Below are positions 1 to 20,071 of a stretch of 28,074 bases of DNA, piece after piece. Numbering within the stretch: the stretch's first letter is position 1; each line of letters starts with the position of its first letter. A program made the translations under genes and the position numbers. Location: contig NZ_JOGX01000084.1 in NCBI RefSeq assembly GCF_000719555.1, positions 1 to 28,074 of the forward strand. The letters run 5' to 3'. The notes under the pieces are model-generated. The model was not told the origin of the DNA. It ran no database searches and saw only the letters and a program-made list of their open reading frames with translations. This DNA is from Streptomyces sp. NRRL F-5727 (GTDB taxonomy: Bacteria > Actinomycetota > Actinomycetes > Streptomycetales > Streptomycetaceae).

Positions 1-20
1 CCACCCCCCCCCCCGTCACC

Positions 21-1814
21 GTGCCCCCCGGCCCCCGCCCCACCCCCACGGTCGCCGACACGCCGGGACACCCGCGCCCGGCCGCCCCGGCGGAGGAGAC
101 GCCCCCGCCGCCGGCGCCCACCCTCACGGCGGACGCGAGCGGCACGACCCCGGCGCCCGAGCCCCGACGGACCCCGGCGCCCGCGCCCGACGCGCCCCCG
201 GCGCCCGCGCCCACCGGCGAGGCGGCGCCCGCGCCCGACGCGCCGTGGGTCGCCCCCCGGCCGGACGCGGCGCGCCCCACGCCGTCCGGCGTCGCCTCCC
301 CGCTCGGCGTACCGGCCGCCGACGGGTCGGCCCCGGCCACCGTCCGCCCGGAGCCGGAGCCGGAGCCGGAGCCGGAGGCCGGCGCCGCCGCGCGTACGCC
401 GGTCGGCTCCGCCTCCGCCGCCCGCCTGGCCGGCACGGCACAACCGGCACGTACCACCGACACCGCCCCTGCGAACGACCCCGCCCCCGTCCCCGACACC
501 GCGTCCGGTGACGCCGCCGCGGCCGGCAGCTCCGATCTGCCGGGCGCCGTGGGGGTCGGCGTGTTCAAGGAGGAGCGGGACGTGCTCGACTTCGGGCGGA
601 TCACCGGCGGGAAGGTGGCGTCCGTCGCCGTGCCGGTCGCCGCCGTGGGACGGCTGCCGCGCCGGAAGAACGTCATCGGGGCGGAGACCACCGGATCGAT
701 CCCCGTCCACCTGCTCTTCCGCGACGGCGGCGACACCCCCGGCACCGCCGCCGCCACCGACGACGACGGCGGTCCCGACACCGTCGCGATGGCCCCGCCC
801 GCCGTCCGGGCCGCGCGGGCCGCGCAGCCGGCGAAGGCCGCACAGGCCGCGATCCCCAGGCCGGCCAAGCCCGCGCGTACCGCGTCCGCGCGGCCCGCGC
901 CGACGGCCGACCCGGCGCTCGTGGAGCGGGCCGCGGCGGTGCTGCCGGGCTGGGTCGGCGTGGCCGGCGGGCTGCTCGCGCTCGCGGGGTGCGCGGCGGT
1001 CGTGTGGTGGGCGGGCGTCGTGCCCGCCGAGGCCGCGCGGATGCTGCGGCTGCCGCCGCGTCCGTACCACGGGGTCCACCTCGCCCAGTGGGCGCTGCTG
1101 GCGCTCGGCGTGCTGGTCCTGCTCTTCGCGGTGGGCGGGCTCGGCCGCGGCAGGGTCGGGTACGCCTGGGTGCTGACCCTGTTCGGCGAGTACCGCGGCA
1201 CGGTGCGGCGTACCGGCCTGGTCTGGGCGAGTCCGCTGCTGCTGCGCCGCCGGGTGGACGTCCGGCTGCGGCACTGGCGCAGCGAGCCGCTGCCGGCGGT
1301 GGACGCGAAGGGGACGGCGCTGGACGTGACCGTGCTCGTCGTGTGGCGGGTCCGGGACACCGTGCGCGCCGCGCTCGGGGTCGACGGCCACGAGGACTAC
1401 CTGCGCGAGCAGGTGGAGGCGGCGATGGCCCGGGTGCTGTCTCAGTTGCCGGCGGACGCGTTCCACGAGGACGCGCCGACGCTGCGGGACGCGGAGGCGG
1501 TCGGCGAGGCGCTGACGCGGATGCTGTCGGCGGAGTGCGCCCCGGTCGGCCTGGACGTGTTCTCGGCGCAGCCGACGCGGATCGAGTACGCCCCCGAGGT
1601 CGCGGAGGCGATGCGCCGCCGCCGGATCGCGGCGATCGACGCGAAGCACCGGGACAGCGTGCTGACGTCGGTGGTGGACGCGGTGGACGACGTGGTCCAC
1701 CGGCTGACCAGTCGTGGTCTGGTCGAGCTGGACGACTACGAGCGGAAGGCGCTGGTGAAGGACCTGACGGTGGCGTTCTACACGGGCCGTGGGGGTCCGG
1801 GGGAGGGTGCCTGA
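21..1814 (+). CDS. SPFH/band-7 domain membrane protein with long Pro/Ala-rich N-terminus (5' end may be outside window)
   Basis: The frame encodes 597 aa from the first visible GTG, but it is open to the window edge, so the true start may lie upstream. Residues 1-180 are low-complexity Pro/Ala/Glu sequence, including an EP-repeat encoded by hexanucleotide repeats. Two hydrophobic segments follow at about residues 310-335 and 355-375. After them comes a band-7/SPFH-like region (about 385-560) with the usual pattern: a tract that turns into the membrane, a TALDVTVLVVWRVRD strand pair, a helix ending in VLSQLP, and a C-terminal coiled segment rich in Arg, Glu and Ala. SPFH proteins oligomerise at membranes and scaffold microdomains; which partners this one has cannot be seen. 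A strong hairpin follows the stop codon. The domain call is good, the cellular role unknown. Confidence 0.75.
   Translation: MPPGPRPTPTVADTPGHPRPAAPAEETPPPPAPTLTADASGTTPAPEPRRTPAPAPDAPPAPAPTGEAAPAPDAPWVAPRPDAARPTPSGVASPLGVPAADGSAPATVRPEPEPEPEPEAGAAARTPVGSASAARLAGTAQPARTTDTAPANDPAPVPDTASGDAAAAGSSDLPGAVGVGVFKEERDVLDFGRITGGKVASVAVPVAAVGRLPRRKNVIGAETTGSIPVHLLFRDGGDTPGTAAATDDDGGPDTVAMAPPAVRAARAAQPAKAAQAAIPRPAKPARTASARPAPTADPALVERAAAVLPGWVGVAGGLLALAGCAAVVWWAGVVPAEAARMLRLPPRPYHGVHLAQWALLALGVLVLLFAVGGLGRGRVGYAWVLTLFGEYRGTVRRTGLVWASPLLLRRRVDVRLRHWRSEPLPAVDAKGTALDVTVLVVWRVRDTVRAALGVDGHEDYLREQVEAAMARVLSQLPADAFHEDAPTLRDAEAVGEALTRMLSAECAPVGLDVFSAQPTRIEYAPEVAEAMRRRRIAAIDAKHRDSVLTSVVDAVDDVVHRLTSRGLVELDDYERKALVKDLTVAFYTGRGGPGEGA
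351..380 (+). repeat. Hexanucleotide repeat (GAGCCG)4 plus one imperfect unit
   Basis: Four exact GAGCCG units (351-374) and an imperfect fifth run in frame and encode the Glu-Pro repeat of the SPFH protein. Such tracts can change length by slippage in whole codons without breaking the frame. Confidence 0.8.
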
Positions 1815-6487: not shown

Positions 6488-6576
6488 CTGTCGGTGCGCC
6501 GCCAGGGACTCGAACCCCGGACCCGCTGATTAAGAGTCAGCTGCTCTAACCAACTGAGCTAGCGGCGCCTGCTGAC
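6488..6576. repeat. 89-bp perfect repeat, copy 1 (tRNA-Lys)
   Basis: This stretch is identical to 14522-14610. It covers the whole tRNA gene plus 7 bp on the 3' side and 8 bp on the 5' side. Identity stops sharply on both sides, although the adjoining hairpins are still similar. Confidence 0.9.
6495..6568 (-). tRNA. tRNA-Lys (anticodon CTT), copy 1
   Basis: The minus strand folds as a 74-nt cloverleaf. The acceptor arms are GCGCCGC and GCGGCGC with discriminator A; the D arm contains AGCTCAGTTGGTTAGAGC; the anticodon loop is CTCTTAA (anticodon CTT, reading AAG); the T arm contains GGTTCGAGTCC. CCA is not encoded, since ACC is followed by G. A -10-like TAGTAT lies at 6584-6589, 15 nt before the mature 5' end. 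The second copy is identical in sequence. Confidence 0.97.
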
Positions 6577-14521: not shown

Positions 14522-14610
14522 CTGTCGGTGCGCCGCCAGGGACTCGAACCCCGGACCCGCTGATTAAGAGTCAGCTGCTCTAACCAACTGAGCTAGCGGC
14601 GCCTGCTGAC
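14522..14610. repeat. 89-bp perfect repeat, copy 2 (tRNA-Lys)
   Basis: This stretch is identical to 6488-6576, in the same orientation, 8034 bp away. Confidence 0.9.
14529..14602 (-). tRNA. tRNA-Lys (anticodon CTT), copy 2
   Basis: The 74-nt gene is identical to the one at 6495-6568, with the same cloverleaf, CTT anticodon and no encoded CCA. Its first 10 nt overlap the 3' end of the upstream same-strand coding gene, whose TAG stop is formed by tRNA bases. A promoter-like TTCACT-N17-TAATGT lies inside that coding gene. Confidence 0.97.
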
Positions 14611-15852: not shown

Positions 15853-17199
15853 TCAGGGCGTCCAGGGCACCCGGTGCTCCGCCAGGTGGGACAGGACCGC
15901 GTGGTTCGCCTCCCACCCGTCGGGGAACTTCACGGTGACGCCCAGCTGGACCGGTTCCGTGGAGGGGTGCTCGTCGAGGAGGTCCGTGACGCCGGCGCGG
16001 CAGACGACGACGCAGGCGTGGCGGTGGCGGGAGGCGAGGACGCAGAGGCGGCCGGTCTCCAGGTGGAAGGCGGTGGCGTCGGGCCGGCCCGACAGGGGGT
16101 GGAGGACGACCGTGACGTCGTACTCGCGGCCCTGGAGCCGGTTGGCCGTGTCGACCGTCACCCCTGACACGCCGAGGTCCGCCAGGGCCGCGCGGACGGC
16201 CGCCGCCTGGTCGCGGTGGGCGGTGCCCACCGCGATCCGGTCCGCGGTCAGCGGCACGGGCGTGTCGGAGCGCTCGCTGACCGCCGCGCCGCCCCGGTCC
16301 AGCAGGCGGCGGACCACCAGGGCGACCGCGTGGACGGCCTCCGGGTCGGTGCGCGGGGTGTGCCGGGCGGGCAGTTCGAGCAGACCCCAGCCGGACTCGG
16401 CCGCCTCGTCCAGGACCCGGTCCGGGGCGGAGCCGTCCGAGGCCGTGCCGAAGGCGAGCCGGCGGTCCCCGGGGCCGGTGCCCGAACGGAACGGCGTGTA
16501 CGGGTAGAAGGCGTCCGACACCAGCGGCGCCGCCGACGCGGGCAGCCGCCAGGAGACCGGCAGCCGGTGCTGCGGCAGCTCCGGGTTGTGCGCGAGCAGC
16601 GTCGAGACCGCCGAGGCGGACGGGTCGTACGAGAGCCCCGCCCACTGGTCCGCGCCGACCACCGAGAACGGGTCCAGCTGCCCCGGGTCGCCCACGAACA
16701 GCGCCCGCTCGAACAGCCCCGCCACGGCGAGCAGCGCGTCCGAGCGCATCTGGTACGCCTCGTCCACGATCGCGTGCGCCCACGGCTCCACGTTCTTCAC
16801 GTGCGCCCACTTGGCGGCCGTCGAGATCACCACCGGCAGCCCGGCCAGGTCCCCCGCCTTCGCCGACTTCCGTACGTGTTCCAGCGCGTCGAGCGCCCGG
16901 TCGTACGGGTCGCTGTCGCTGGAGTGCAGCCGGCCCACCTCCAGGTCCGGCTCCTTCTCGGCGAGCCGCAGCACCAGGTCGTCGACCTGCGCGTTGGTCT
17001 GCGCCACCACCATCAGGGGGCGCCCGGCCGCGGCCAGTTCGAGCGCGGCCCGCACCACCAGCGTCGACTTGCCGGCGCCGGGCGGGGAGTCGACGACGAC
17101 GCCCCGGGCGGTGCCGTGCAGGGTGCTCTCCAGGATCGCGGCGGTCGCCGCCGCGGCGGCCGCGCCCGGGTCGGGCACGGCGGGGTCGTACAGGGTCAC
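15853..17199 (-). CDS. SF1 (UPF1/Dna2-like) helicase, AAA_11/AAA_12 type
   Basis: This 448-aa ATPase carries helicase superfamily 1 motifs in order. Walker A is SPPGAGKST (38-46), Ia is VVAQTNAQVDDL, and Walker B is IVDEAYQM (DEAY 146-149). Motif III is VGDPGQLDPFSV (about 169-180), a motif IV region includes PVSWRLP, motif V is DTANRLQGREYDVTVV and motif VI is ASRHRHACVVV. The DEAY and GDPGQLDP sequences are typical of the UPF1/Dna2 branch rather than UvrD. Walker A lies close to the N-terminus, so the domain 1B barrel usual in this branch is missing from this polypeptide. The start GTG 17199 overlaps the upstream stop by 4 nt (GTGA), implying translational coupling. Confidence 0.9.
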   Translation of the reverse strand: MTLYDPAVPDPGAAAAAATAAILESTLHGTARGVVVDSPPGAGKSTLVVRAALELAAAGRPLMVVAQTNAQVDDLVLRLAEKEPDLEVGRLHSSDSDPYDRALDALEHVRKSAKAGDLAGLPVVISTAAKWAHVKNVEPWAHAIVDEAYQMRSDALLAVAGLFERALFVGDPGQLDPFSVVGADQWAGLSYDPSASAVSTLLAHNPELPQHRLPVSWRLPASAAPLVSDAFYPYTPFRSGTGPGDRRLAFGTASDGSAPDRVLDEAAESGWGLLELPARHTPRTDPEAVHAVALVVRRLLDRGGAAVSERSDTPVPLTADRIAVGTAHRDQAAAVRAALADLGVSGVTVDTANRLQGREYDVTVVLHPLSGRPDATAFHLETGRLCVLASRHRHACVVVCRAGVTDLLDEHPSTEPVQLGVTVKFPDGWEANHAVLSHLAEHRVPWTP

Positions 17200-18785
17200 A
17201 GCAGGTCCTCGGGGGTCACGGCGTCGGGCAGCTCGGCGTCGGCGGAGCGCGGCGGGCCGCCGTGGGTCCACGGCGTCTCCTCCGGGTCGGGCAGCTTCGG
17301 CCCCACCCGCTGGTCGTGCTCGAAGAGCGTCCAGGCGATCCGCTCGCCCTTCTCCGGCACCGTGCCCTCCGCGGGCTCCTTCGACCGGCCCATCTTGTCC
17401 AGCAGCCGCAGCACCAGGGAGCCGTCCTCCTCGCGGCGGACGAACTCCGCCGACTGCGGCTTGCCGCCCAGCGAGCGGTACACCTTCACGCCCTCGTCCA
17501 GATGCGGCCGGTCCTCGGTGCGGACCGTCAGCAGCGGGCGCGGCGCGGGCCGCTTCGACTCCGTCCACGCCATGGTCACCTCGGTGACCTCCCCGGTGAA
17601 CGCCTCCCCGGAGAGCCGCCGGCCGGCGAGCACCAGCGGATCGTCCAGCGCCTCCTGGGCGTCCAGCTGCCCCTGCGCCTGCTCGCGCGCGGCGAGCTTG
17701 GCGGCGGCGGTCACGGCGTCGTCGCGGCGCGGCTGCGGCGGCTCCCCGGCGGTGATCCGGTCCCGGTGCGCCGTGAAGGACCAGCGGTCCCGGGTCCACC
17801 GGTCGGCGACCCGGGCCCCCTCGGGCAGCTCCCGCAGCAGGCCGAGCGCCCGCCAGGTCGCGTCCCAGACGGGCTTCAGCTGGGAGCCGACGAGCCGCCG
17901 GATCTCCCGCTCGGCCCGGTGCAGGCCGGCGAGCGCCGCGTCGGCCGCCTCGCCGTCCTCGGCGGCGCCGACGGCCTGCCGGGCCCGGTCGTACGCCTCG
18001 ATCGCGGGCGCGAGGAGCCGGTTGTCGAAGGCAGGGTCGGTCGCGGGCCCGGCCGGCGGGCACAGCAACTGCCCCTCCGCGTCCCGCCCCAGCTCGGCCC
18101 GGTACGCGGCGCGGGCGCCGGACTCGCCCTCCGGCGGGTCGATCCAGGCGAGCAGCGCCCCCAGGTGCTGGTCCTCCAGGGAGGACTGGCCGGTCGCCCA
18201 GTGCCGGTTGAGCAGGTCGGTCGCCGCGAGCAGCAGCGAGGAGCCCGGCACCCGGGCCCGCTCGCCGTAGTGGGTCAGCCACCGCCCGAGCAGCGGCACG
18301 CGCGGCGGCGCCGGGTACGGCGTGTCGGGGTCCTGTTCGGCGGTGCGCCGGAACCGCGTGGACCGCCCCAGCAGCCGTACGTACTCGATCCCGGCCCGGC
18401 TGGGCACGATCAGCTGCGGCGCGTCGGCGCACAGCTCGACCTCGACCTTCGCCTTCTTCCCGGTCTCCGGGTCCGTCTCGTTCCGCTCGACGAGCTCGAC
18501 GGCGTCCGCGTACCCGTCGACGTACGGCAGCACCTCCTCGGCCAGCTCGGCGAGGAACGCGAACCGCAGCTCCCGGTCGCGCGGCTGGGGCACCACCAGG
18601 AGCCGCGGCTCCTCCGGGTCGGTGCCGACCAGCGCGCCGAGCGGGGCGCCCGCCTCGCCGGCCGTGGTCAGCGGCACCAGGACGAGCGGCCGCGCGCCGA
18701 GGTGCCGGTGCCGGACGGTCGCCAGCGGTTGCGCCCGGCCCGCCTCCACGGCCTCCATCCGGGCCAGGTGCGCGATCAGCGACAT
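17196..18785 (-). CDS. Unassigned 529-aa protein of the nuclease-helicase operon
   Basis: The middle gene of the operon begins at ATG 18785, overlapping the nuclease gene by 10 nt, and its stop overlaps the helicase start by 4 nt. No catalytic motif is recognised. The N-terminal part (about 1-200) looks mixed alpha/beta (MSLIAHLARMEAVEAG; RPLVLVPLT; AFLAELAEEVLPYVDGY). The centre (about 215-385) is helical, with GRWLTHYGERARVPGSS and many Glu/Arg/Ala residues. Residues 387-497 are strand-rich (FTGEVTEVTMAW; LLTVRTEDRPHLDEGVKVY; GSLVLRLLDKMG; GERIAWTLFEHDQ) and could be the beta-barrel 1B domain that UPF1-like helicases carry before Walker A. That assignment is inference. It is probably a structural partner linking nuclease and helicase. 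Confidence 0.85.
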   Translation of the reverse strand: MSLIAHLARMEAVEAGRAQPLATVRHRHLGARPLVLVPLTTAGEAGAPLGALVGTDPEEPRLLVVPQPRDRELRFAFLAELAEEVLPYVDGYADAVELVERNETDPETGKKAKVEVELCADAPQLIVPSRAGIEYVRLLGRSTRFRRTAEQDPDTPYPAPPRVPLLGRWLTHYGERARVPGSSLLLAATDLLNRHWATGQSSLEDQHLGALLAWIDPPEGESGARAAYRAELGRDAEGQLLCPPAGPATDPAFDNRLLAPAIEAYDRARQAVGAAEDGEAADAALAGLHRAEREIRRLVGSQLKPVWDATWRALGLLRELPEGARVADRWTRDRWSFTAHRDRITAGEPPQPRRDDAVTAAAKLAAREQAQGQLDAQEALDDPLVLAGRRLSGEAFTGEVTEVTMAWTESKRPAPRPLLTVRTEDRPHLDEGVKVYRSLGGKPQSAEFVRREEDGSLVLRLLDKMGRSKEPAEGTVPEKGERIAWTLFEHDQRVGPKLPDPEETPWTHGGPPRSADAELPDAVTPEDLL

Positions 18786-19933
18786 GCCGCGGCCTCCGTC
18801 AGCGCTTCCTGCCGCAGCGCCCGCGCCCGGCGCAGCGCCGCCACCGCCGGGTCCCGCGGGTCGCCGTCCTCCCCGCGCGCGGCGGCCAGCACCGCGCCGA
18901 CCGTGGTGAGCCCGCCCAGCTCGCCCCGCACCGACCGTCCCAGGGTCTGCACCGCGTCCGCCTCCCGGGCCCGCGACCGGCAGTGGAAGCCCAGCTCGCA
19001 GGCGGCCAGGCACTCCGGCGCGTACGCGTGCGGGACCGCCTCCACGGCGGCCGCCAGCTCCTCCGCCGAGCATCCCCGCACGTCGAAGCTCAGCCCCTCG
19101 GGCAGCGCGTCGGCGATCTCCTCGATCCGGGTCAGCCGCGCCAGCTGGCGCCGGGTCACCGCCCGCTGCCTGCGCACGTCCACCACGGAGGCCGTCGGCA
19201 GGTTCGAGAAGTCCTTCGGGCAGACCAGCAGCACCGCGTGGCCGACCTCGGCGCCCTCGGTGAGCGCCGCGACCCGCTCCAGCGCCAGCACGTACACGGC
19301 CGCCTGCCGGGCCGCCGCGCCCACCTTCGCCGCGTCCGCGGCCCCGTCCACCATCGGGAACGACTTGATCTCCACGACCGTCCACCGCCCGGCCGGGTCC
19401 ACCACCACCGCGTCCGGCTCCAGGTGCACGGGCGACCCCGCCACCTCCAGCGTCAGCAGCGGATGGTCGAGCAGCGTCCACCCGCCGGCCGCGGTCGCCT
19501 CGCGCAGCGCGAGCGCCGTCCGCGCGGTCCGCCCCTCGGGCCCGGACGCCGACAGGTCCGGTACGGAGACGGCCCCCGGGTCCTCGACGCCGAGCAGCCG
19601 CAGCAGCTCCCGCCCGCCGTCCGCCTTGACCTTCGCCTCGAAGCTGTTGCCCCGCACGATCGCGAACTGCGACTGGCCGAACGGCGCCGGCGAGCCGAGC
19701 CGCGACGCGAGCGCCCCCTTGTCCACCCCCGCGCCGTCCAGCAGCGCCCGGCGCCTGCACCCCGGGTTCGCGGCGAGCGCGGCCAGCGCCCGCGCGTCCA
19801 GCGGGCGCGGCGGAACGGCCGGCCCGCGCAGTTCGGCGAGTCTCTCCCGCGTCCTGCGCCGGCTCGCCGGGGTCGGCTCGGGGTCCGTCGTGTGCGGCGG
19901 CCGTGACCCGCCGTCGTCCAGGGATGCGCTCAC
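18776..19933 (-). CDS. RecB/Cas4-like PD-(D/E)XK nuclease with probable Fe-S cluster
   Basis: This 385-aa protein has a RecB-type nuclease core. FEAKV around Glu99 fits the first motif, Asp174 in HLEPDAVVVD and E188-I-K190 in TVVEIKSF form the metal site, and QAAVY (Q210-Y214) matches the QxxxY motif. Cys59 (NPGCRRR) and the trio Cys308-x3-Cys312-x5-Cys318 are spaced like the Fe-S ligands that staple Cas4, AddB and Dna2 nuclease domains, with one residue more between the first two of the trio. It would cut single-stranded DNA ends. Start: GTG 19933 is the conservative choice; an in-frame ATG at 20041 has GGAGGG 10 nt upstream and would add 36 aa. First gene of a three-gene operon. Confidence 0.85.
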   Translation of the reverse strand: MSASLDDGGSRPPHTTDPEPTPASRRRTRERLAELRGPAVPPRPLDARALAALAANPGCRRRALLDGAGVDKGALASRLGSPAPFGQSQFAIVRGNSFEAKVKADGGRELLRLLGVEDPGAVSVPDLSASGPEGRTARTALALREATAAGGWTLLDHPLLTLEVAGSPVHLEPDAVVVDPAGRWTVVEIKSFPMVDGAADAAKVGAAARQAAVYVLALERVAALTEGAEVGHAVLLVCPKDFSNLPTASVVDVRRQRAVTRRQLARLTRIEEIADALPEGLSFDVRGCSAEELAAAVEAVPHAYAPECLAACELGFHCRSRAREADAVQTLGRSVRGELGGLTTVGAVLAAARGEDGDPRDPAVAALRRARALRQEALTEAAACR

Positions 19934-20071
19934 CCGCGGAAGTGTCGCATCCGCCACTGACAACGCGGGCGCGTTCCGGCCCGGGGACACCGGGAGTTCG
20001 CGCCCGGGCCGCCTGCGCGATGATGAGGAGACCCGTCCCATCCGCGTCGCACCCTCCGGAGAGCCCCACCC

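Follow-up and report, generated by a model that had tools for sequence, protein, structure and literature searches.

In the AddAB, AdnAB, and RecBCD enzymes a nuclease is fused to a helicase with a UvrD-like motor, and Cas4 and Exo5 act alone or with Cas1-Cas2. In Dna2, the iron-sulfur (Fe-S) cysteines are spaced C-x2-C-x5-C, and the enzyme is paired with Mre11-Rad50 in eukaryotes. AddB has also been described as an Fe-S protein (PMC4716839). Here, we analyzed 28,074 nucleotides of Streptomyces sp. NRRL F-5727 (contig NZ_JOGX01000084.1, positions 1 to 28,074; hereafter the window), in which three overlapping genes code for a nuclease, a middle protein without family annotation, and a helicase. 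This operon probably codes for a single DNA-end-processing enzyme in three chains, a split, DNA-damage-induced nuclease-helicase of the Dna2 type. What the analysis shows is the gene order, the predicted folds of two subunits, the conservation of motifs, co-inheritance, and a promoter box.

The trio occupies window positions 19933-15853 on the minus strand (Table 1), with overlaps of 10 nt between the nuclease and middle genes and 4 nt (GTGA) between the middle and helicase genes; the coordinates and overlaps given in a preliminary description of this DNA all stand. The three genes were adjacent on one strand in 75 of 80 Streptomyces loci, and in the remaining 5 a contig end interrupted the locus. 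The 10-nt overlap recurred in 59/75 and the 4-nt overlap in 52/75, the latter count being biased upward because the script picked the start codon nearest to a 4-nt overlap; two spacings in this survey (-1608 and -667) were artefacts of the stop/start search. Given this adjacency and the recurring overlaps, the three-gene arrangement is more than chance. The gene order was identical in 18 further distinct relatives with a complete trio, with overlaps of 4 to 11 nt as a rule; the exceptions in spacing were L133 (gaps of 25 and 156 nt), L119 (nuclease end not placed), and L132 (no adjacent helicase). The genes were always separate, never forming one polypeptide, both in the window and at the other loci examined. 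Linkage, a point raised in the preliminary description, held nearly everywhere sampled. It failed in G204 and G554, two genomes from a single genus (f6/g8) in which 36 and 49 kb separate the helicase gene from the middle gene, and this counts against strict linkage. In G204 the nuclease and middle genes were adjacent, and the helicase match of G204 and the middle match of G554 each contained one stop.

The structure model of the nuclease resembled Cas4, Exo5, AddB, AdnA, and Dna2 in a structural comparison, in agreement with the RecB/Cas4-like assignment made earlier, and its Pfam match to PDDEXK_1 was weak and below the cut-off. Four cysteines, C59, C308, C312, and C318 (C-x3-C-x5-C), were invariant in 11/11 divergent relatives, 79/79 aligned proteins, and 44/44 scored loci; the L119 nuclease, whose reading frame has one stop, was replaced by that of L121 in the alignment, and its tblastn fragment was used in the scoring of clades and residues. 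The retention of all four in every relative scored is consistent with the Fe-S set suspected from the letters of the window. The catalytic H-D-ExK-QxxxY motifs were present in the canonical lineage to which the window copy belongs and not in the lineage called clade C below. A profile search of the nuclease against the PDB returned only engineered proteins over 30 positions and was ignored.

The helicase matched AAA_11 and AAA_12 above the Pfam cut-offs, and its best solved relatives in a profile search were DNA2 (1.2e-11), followed by SMUBP-2 and UPF1, as expected for the UPF1/Dna2 branch to which it had been assigned. Its motifs were invariant in 9/9 divergent relatives (L135, with misaligned columns from two overlapping pieces, was excluded from helicase statements). 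Walker A lies at residues 38-44, with the lysine at residue 44, near the start of the protein as first described, so that no barrel-like segment is encoded ahead of RecA domain 1. The helicase consists of two RecA domains without an N-terminal stalk or barrel.

The middle protein had no match in Pfam, NCBIfam, or PADLOC, and its sequence profile gave nothing useful against the PDB. Its AlphaFold model was confident (predicted local distance difference test, pLDDT, 87.6), and the C-terminal part, noted earlier as strand-rich, was composed of long helices followed by the barrel that had been proposed. In a VIA-align comparison, the top five rows fell on stalk and 1B barrel segments from Ighmbp2, Senataxin, and Sen1, and Foldseek alone gave no significant match to the model. 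Thus, the stalk and 1B barrel absent from the helicase gene seem, from the model, to be supplied by the middle protein, and the Dna2-like list of parts in the preliminary description appears to hold in the same order, with the nuclease matches, the stalk and 1B barrel match, and DNA2 as the top match of the motor. The WTH of the tail was retained in 44/44 loci yet lies in a low-confidence stretch of the model (mean pLDDT 58 for residues 501-510), which fits a docking peptide.

Table 1. Positions of the trio genes and the promoter box in the window, and segments of the middle protein.
Feature	Position	Strand	Details
Nuclease gene	19933-18776	-	385 aa, GTG start; predicted Fe-S PD-(D/E)XK, RecB/Cas4/Dna2-type
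Middle gene	18785-17196	-	529 aa, ATG start; no family annotation
Helicase gene	17199-15853	-	448 aa, GTG start; superfamily 1B (SF1B) UPF1/Dna2-type motor
RecA-NDp/PafBC-like box, TTGTCAGTG-N8-GACACT	19941..19963	-	7 nt before nuclease start codon
Middle protein, N-terminal alpha/beta domain	residues about 1-240		AlphaFold model
Middle protein, long helices	residues 251-391		AlphaFold model
Middle protein, beta barrel	residues 394-486 (strands 395-486)		AlphaFold model
Middle protein, conserved PWTH tail	residues 505-508		conservation

The box ahead of the nuclease gene resembles the RecA-NDp consensus, and its -10 element deviates from TAnnnT. RecA-NDp has been reported as the promoter type through which PafBC acts on DNA-damage genes of actinobacteria, with Streptomyces examples ahead of recA and SCO6735 (PMC8223512, PMC6789036, PMC5087735). 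In favour of the assignment, the source genome has such sites ahead of recA, rarA, ung, and a macrodomain gene. The pattern TTGTCRGTG-N8-KANNNT occurred at 28 sites in that genome, compared with 0 for the reversed control, and the genes that follow include those coding for RecA (also with 7-nt spacing), RarA/MgsA, uracil-DNA glycosylase, a Macro-domain protein, and two WGR proteins; a good share of the 28 sites had no convincing downstream gene. Exact TTGTCRGTGG preceded the nuclease gene in 35/77 loci, its sole exact occurrences across the 80 loci, most of the others were one base off, and 9 had no hit with at most one mismatch in the stretch searched. The full TTGTCRGTG-N8-xA[CG]ACT was retained in 61/77 leaders, which are those of the window and 76 of 79 loci (truncated L035, L044, and L048 are missing) and were extracted with a filter that itself required TGTCRG and the -10 core. 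Conservation is high in the spacer as well, which means that the block may contain elements beyond this promoter. From the box, we infer that DNA damage would induce expression of the trio through PafBC.

The middle gene was matched once in the source genome (7.95 Mb in 187 contigs) and occurred in 115/121 Streptomyces genomes, mostly as a single match. It was found in 71/394 genomes and 16/137 genera of the class, one of the 71 being weak (G575, E 9.8e-5), and in 14/396 genomes and 3/236 genera of the phylum. In protein searches with 120 proteins listed for each, Streptosporangium, Micromonospora, Nonomuraea, Nocardia, and Frankia were among the names. The co-occurrence check suggested with the preliminary description revealed strong co-inheritance, since 23 of the 24 genomes without the middle gene also lacked the nuclease and 18 lacked any helicase match (E 1e-8). 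Among the six helicase matches in these genomes, those of G847 and G856 were pieces near the contig starts of fragmented drafts, that of G235 was a remnant with three stops, and the remaining three (29-35% identity) are probably other helicases.

Pfam was used to scan 10 neighbouring open reading frames (ORFs) of the window copy, to which PADLOC was not applied; 5 matched, namely GGDEF-EAL, histidine phosphatase, spermine-synthase-like, response regulator, and histidine kinase, and none matched a defence family. The stretch of about 950 bp between the histidine phosphatase and nuclease genes in many relatives was considered as a missing fourth gene and rejected, as it held a PAP2-like membrane protein in a single example viewed by eye. 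The window also contains two tRNA-Lys (CTT) genes on the same strand, 8 kb apart (6493-6568 and 14527-14602).

Relatives of the trio were found in two other settings (the clade labels A, B, and C are our own). Clades A and B, which form one group (support 1.0), carry the four-gene unit U-nuclease-middle-helicase, with sbcD divergent in 21/21 distinct loci (20 from Streptomyces and one from another genus; sbcD was only a piece in L125 and L137). SbcD scored above the NCBIfam cut-off, and the SbcC match was below it. The jet genes of Wadjet followed in 7/20 Streptomyces loci (L118, L124, L137, L138, L141, L145, L150), and in L118 a TtrA-like gene lay between the cassette and the jet genes. A TTGTCAGTG-type box was also seen just before jetA (L124:12507, L138:15682, L141:11684, L145:8855(-), L118:5724(-)), and Wadjet in these cassettes may therefore be DNA-damage inducible. 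Gene U (about 280 residues, e.g., L137:2318-3163) lies ahead of the nuclease gene in most of the non-canonical lineages; it had no match in the 80 canonical Streptomyces loci L002-L081, a few of which are cut short upstream, nor in the source genome. It matched no family over the cut-off and had a weak UVR motif (E 0.077); G837, G999, and G1000 (E 2.5e-4 to 6.8e-4) were not counted as carriers. The defence contexts belong to paralogous lineages, where the extra upstream gene makes a four-gene unit.

The distance from the clade A/B cassette to a contig end was below 25 kb in 5/6 chromosomes of one or two contigs (G839, G1035, G873, G799, and G706, the last taken from the class-wide middle-gene survey and the others from the gene U search), with inverted copies at both ends in 3 of the 5; in G854 it was 523 kb from the contig end. 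Two plasmid records carried it 4 and 13 kb from the end, the first being labelled circular in its record, and a third had a remnant about 1 kb from the end. The orientation of the cassette toward the end differed between clades A and B. TtrA-like helicases, so labelled by us from domain content and position, adjoined the cassette in L118, L126, and L127 and in G1035 were located outside it at either end; they resemble the terminal genes already known (PMC8743542). Other genes near these ends include one for a DnaB-C-domain protein close to the left chromosome ends of Streptomyces G799 and G873 (L169:3714-5591, Pfam-scanned, and L170:3166-5043, alike by eye) and, on the G706 chromosome, the gene called first (L168:344-3283, 979 residues, sub-threshold AAA_16), possibly a telomere-associated gene. 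Gene U and the complete trio are also present in an 11.85 Mb record with 10 annotated features that is filed as a plasmid of Nonomuraea gerenzanensis (L140, NZ_LT559118.1) and is probably a chromosome.

In clade C, 8/8 fetched loci (L128-L131, L151-L154) were divergent from PprPDDEXK-PprRE-PprDinG, and the pPIWI-RE gene itself was downstream in 2/2 loci fetched for it. A strong pPIWI_RE_Y match lay near U in 11/13 genomes, G1067 and G1096 being assigned to the clade by U identity without such a match. The source genome also has a pPIWI_RE_Y match outside the window (G000:C5:205440-205808; 38.8 bits), which is over the cut-off and far weaker than those of clade C. Catalytic residues were lost in 8/8 clade C nucleases (H157R in 8, K190R in 8, E188L in 5, D174Q in 3, and Y214S in 3), and all four cysteines, like the helicase residues that were scored, were intact. 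The neighbouring pPIWI-RE genes include one for their own PD-(D/E)XK nuclease, and 0/6 copies on long contigs were within 1 Mb of a contig end. The clade C nucleases are degenerate in catalysis yet keep the Fe-S cysteines, suggesting that the subunit has a structural role that outlasts its catalysis, and the lineage offers a natural set of nuclease-degenerate enzymes.

DNA damage would be expected to switch on the operon through PafBC, yielding the motor (1A and 2A), the stalk/1B barrel, and the Fe-S nuclease as separate subunits. We infer that the three chains form one complex and, with it, a polarity and a substrate. As an SF1B member, the motor would run 5'-to-3' along single-stranded DNA; the barrel subunit would connect it to the nuclease, which would receive the strand and cut it. 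The outcome would be resection, or clearing of ends and flaps, for RecA-dependent repair. End resection in Streptomyces has been described as atypical, and deletion of adnAB, coding for the presumed helicase-nuclease complex, was reported not to be viable in S. ambofaciens (PMC5124664); thus, a second, damage-inducible end-processing enzyme of the core genome would be directly relevant, if true. A Dna2 with its 1B barrel as a separate protein would also make the role of that domain testable by mixing subunits. A broader reading, which we put forward tentatively and at somewhat below even chances, is that the trio serves as an exchangeable DNA-end engine of three chains, a Dna2 with its stalk/1B barrel in trans, that Actinomycetes have placed in three settings: a PafBC-type damage response (the core copy), a module with Mre11-Rad50 (SbcCD) and often Wadjet close to the ends of linear chromosomes and plasmids, and the pPIWI-RE island. 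Wadjet is reported to cut circular but not linear DNA (PMC10586767); in the second setting it would linearise circular competitors for degradation by SbcCD and the trio, sparing protein-capped linear replicons. In the third, Argonaute-like setting, nuclease catalysis would have been lost and helicase function alone would remain. The terminal lineage places a pair like Mre11-Rad50 and Dna2, sometimes with Wadjet, on linear replicons, and the end-patching proteins of several telomere classes are described as unknown (PMC8743542).

The operon might instead be primarily an anti-phage or anti-plasmid defence fixed in Streptomyces, its damage box responding to damage caused by invaders. The related cassettes beside JetABCD and SbcCD or pPIWI-RE genes fit this, as does weak similarity of the helicase to Mokosh and PLuB helicases; PADLOC gave only weak partial matches for the helicase and none for the other two proteins. 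However, the middle gene is near-general in the genus and mostly single, none of the 5 neighbours matched in the Pfam scan of 10 is of a defence family, and the promoter pattern is common to recA, rarA, and ung. Moreover, the middle protein, the only one of the three searched for there, had no relative in 50,697 phage records, and none of its 42 pattern hits in viral contigs was confirmed. Hence we consider this explanation unlikely, and the anti-phage option of the preliminary description is unsupported at the window locus, where a core copy, with no defence family among the 10 neighbouring ORFs scanned with Pfam, has a damage-type box. The PLuB similarity was dropped as a lead after a literature search on PLuB without result.

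It is quite unlikely that the genes code for three co-regulated DNA-repair factors rather than one enzyme, with the middle protein a separate DNA-binding or scaffold protein having a generic small barrel, because the helicase gene lacks exactly what the middle protein seems to supply, the order nuclease-barrel-motor is that of Dna2, the genes overlap and are lost together, and the WTH tail fits a docking peptide. Service to the linear chromosome, at telomere ends capped by terminal protein or at replication intermediates rather than at breaks in general, would account for the near-terminal position of the related lineage, at both ends in 3 chromosomes, and for its TtrA-like neighbours. Nevertheless, the lineage of the window is chromosomal core and occurs also in families without evidence of linear chromosomes, and the terminal position may merely reflect plasmid-end exchange; this explanation appears very unlikely. 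The three-chain enzyme of the Dna2 type remains the probable reading.

No published description of the trio was found in the literature searched, which most subscription journals lie outside; SiwR, considered as a lead, was rejected, as it is described for a different operon (PMC10693628). Among known systems, Cas4 and Exo5 have the PD-(D/E)XK fold in common with the nuclease and are among its best structural rows, and no cas gene was seen beside the operon, although CRISPR loci were not specifically searched for. Wadjet (JetABCD) and SbcCD lie downstream of the paralogous cassette or divergent from it and are not adjacent to the window copy, and their proteins belong to other families than the trio. 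The genes of the pPIWI-RE system adjoin clade C; it was described in 2013 as a three-gene island of pPIWI-RE, REase, and DinG helicase, and the part of that description used here does not mention a nuclease-barrel-helicase neighbour (PMC3702460). Similar to AddAB, AdnAB, and RecBCD, the trio couples a RecB-family nuclease to an SF1 helicase in several subunits, but its motor is UPF1-like (AAA_11/AAA_12) and separate from the nuclease. Eukaryotic Dna2 is described as having an Fe-S RecB-type nuclease, a stalk with a beta barrel, and a UPF1-type motor (PMC4716839), parts that the trio seems to have in the identical order. Dna2 is one chain, whereas the trio is three genes with the cysteine spacing C-x3-C-x5-C, a middle protein that has an additional domain at its N-terminus (about 240 residues), and no identified OB domain. 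The presence of SbcCD beside relatives of the trio parallels the way in which Mre11-Rad50 is paired with Dna2 in eukaryotes.
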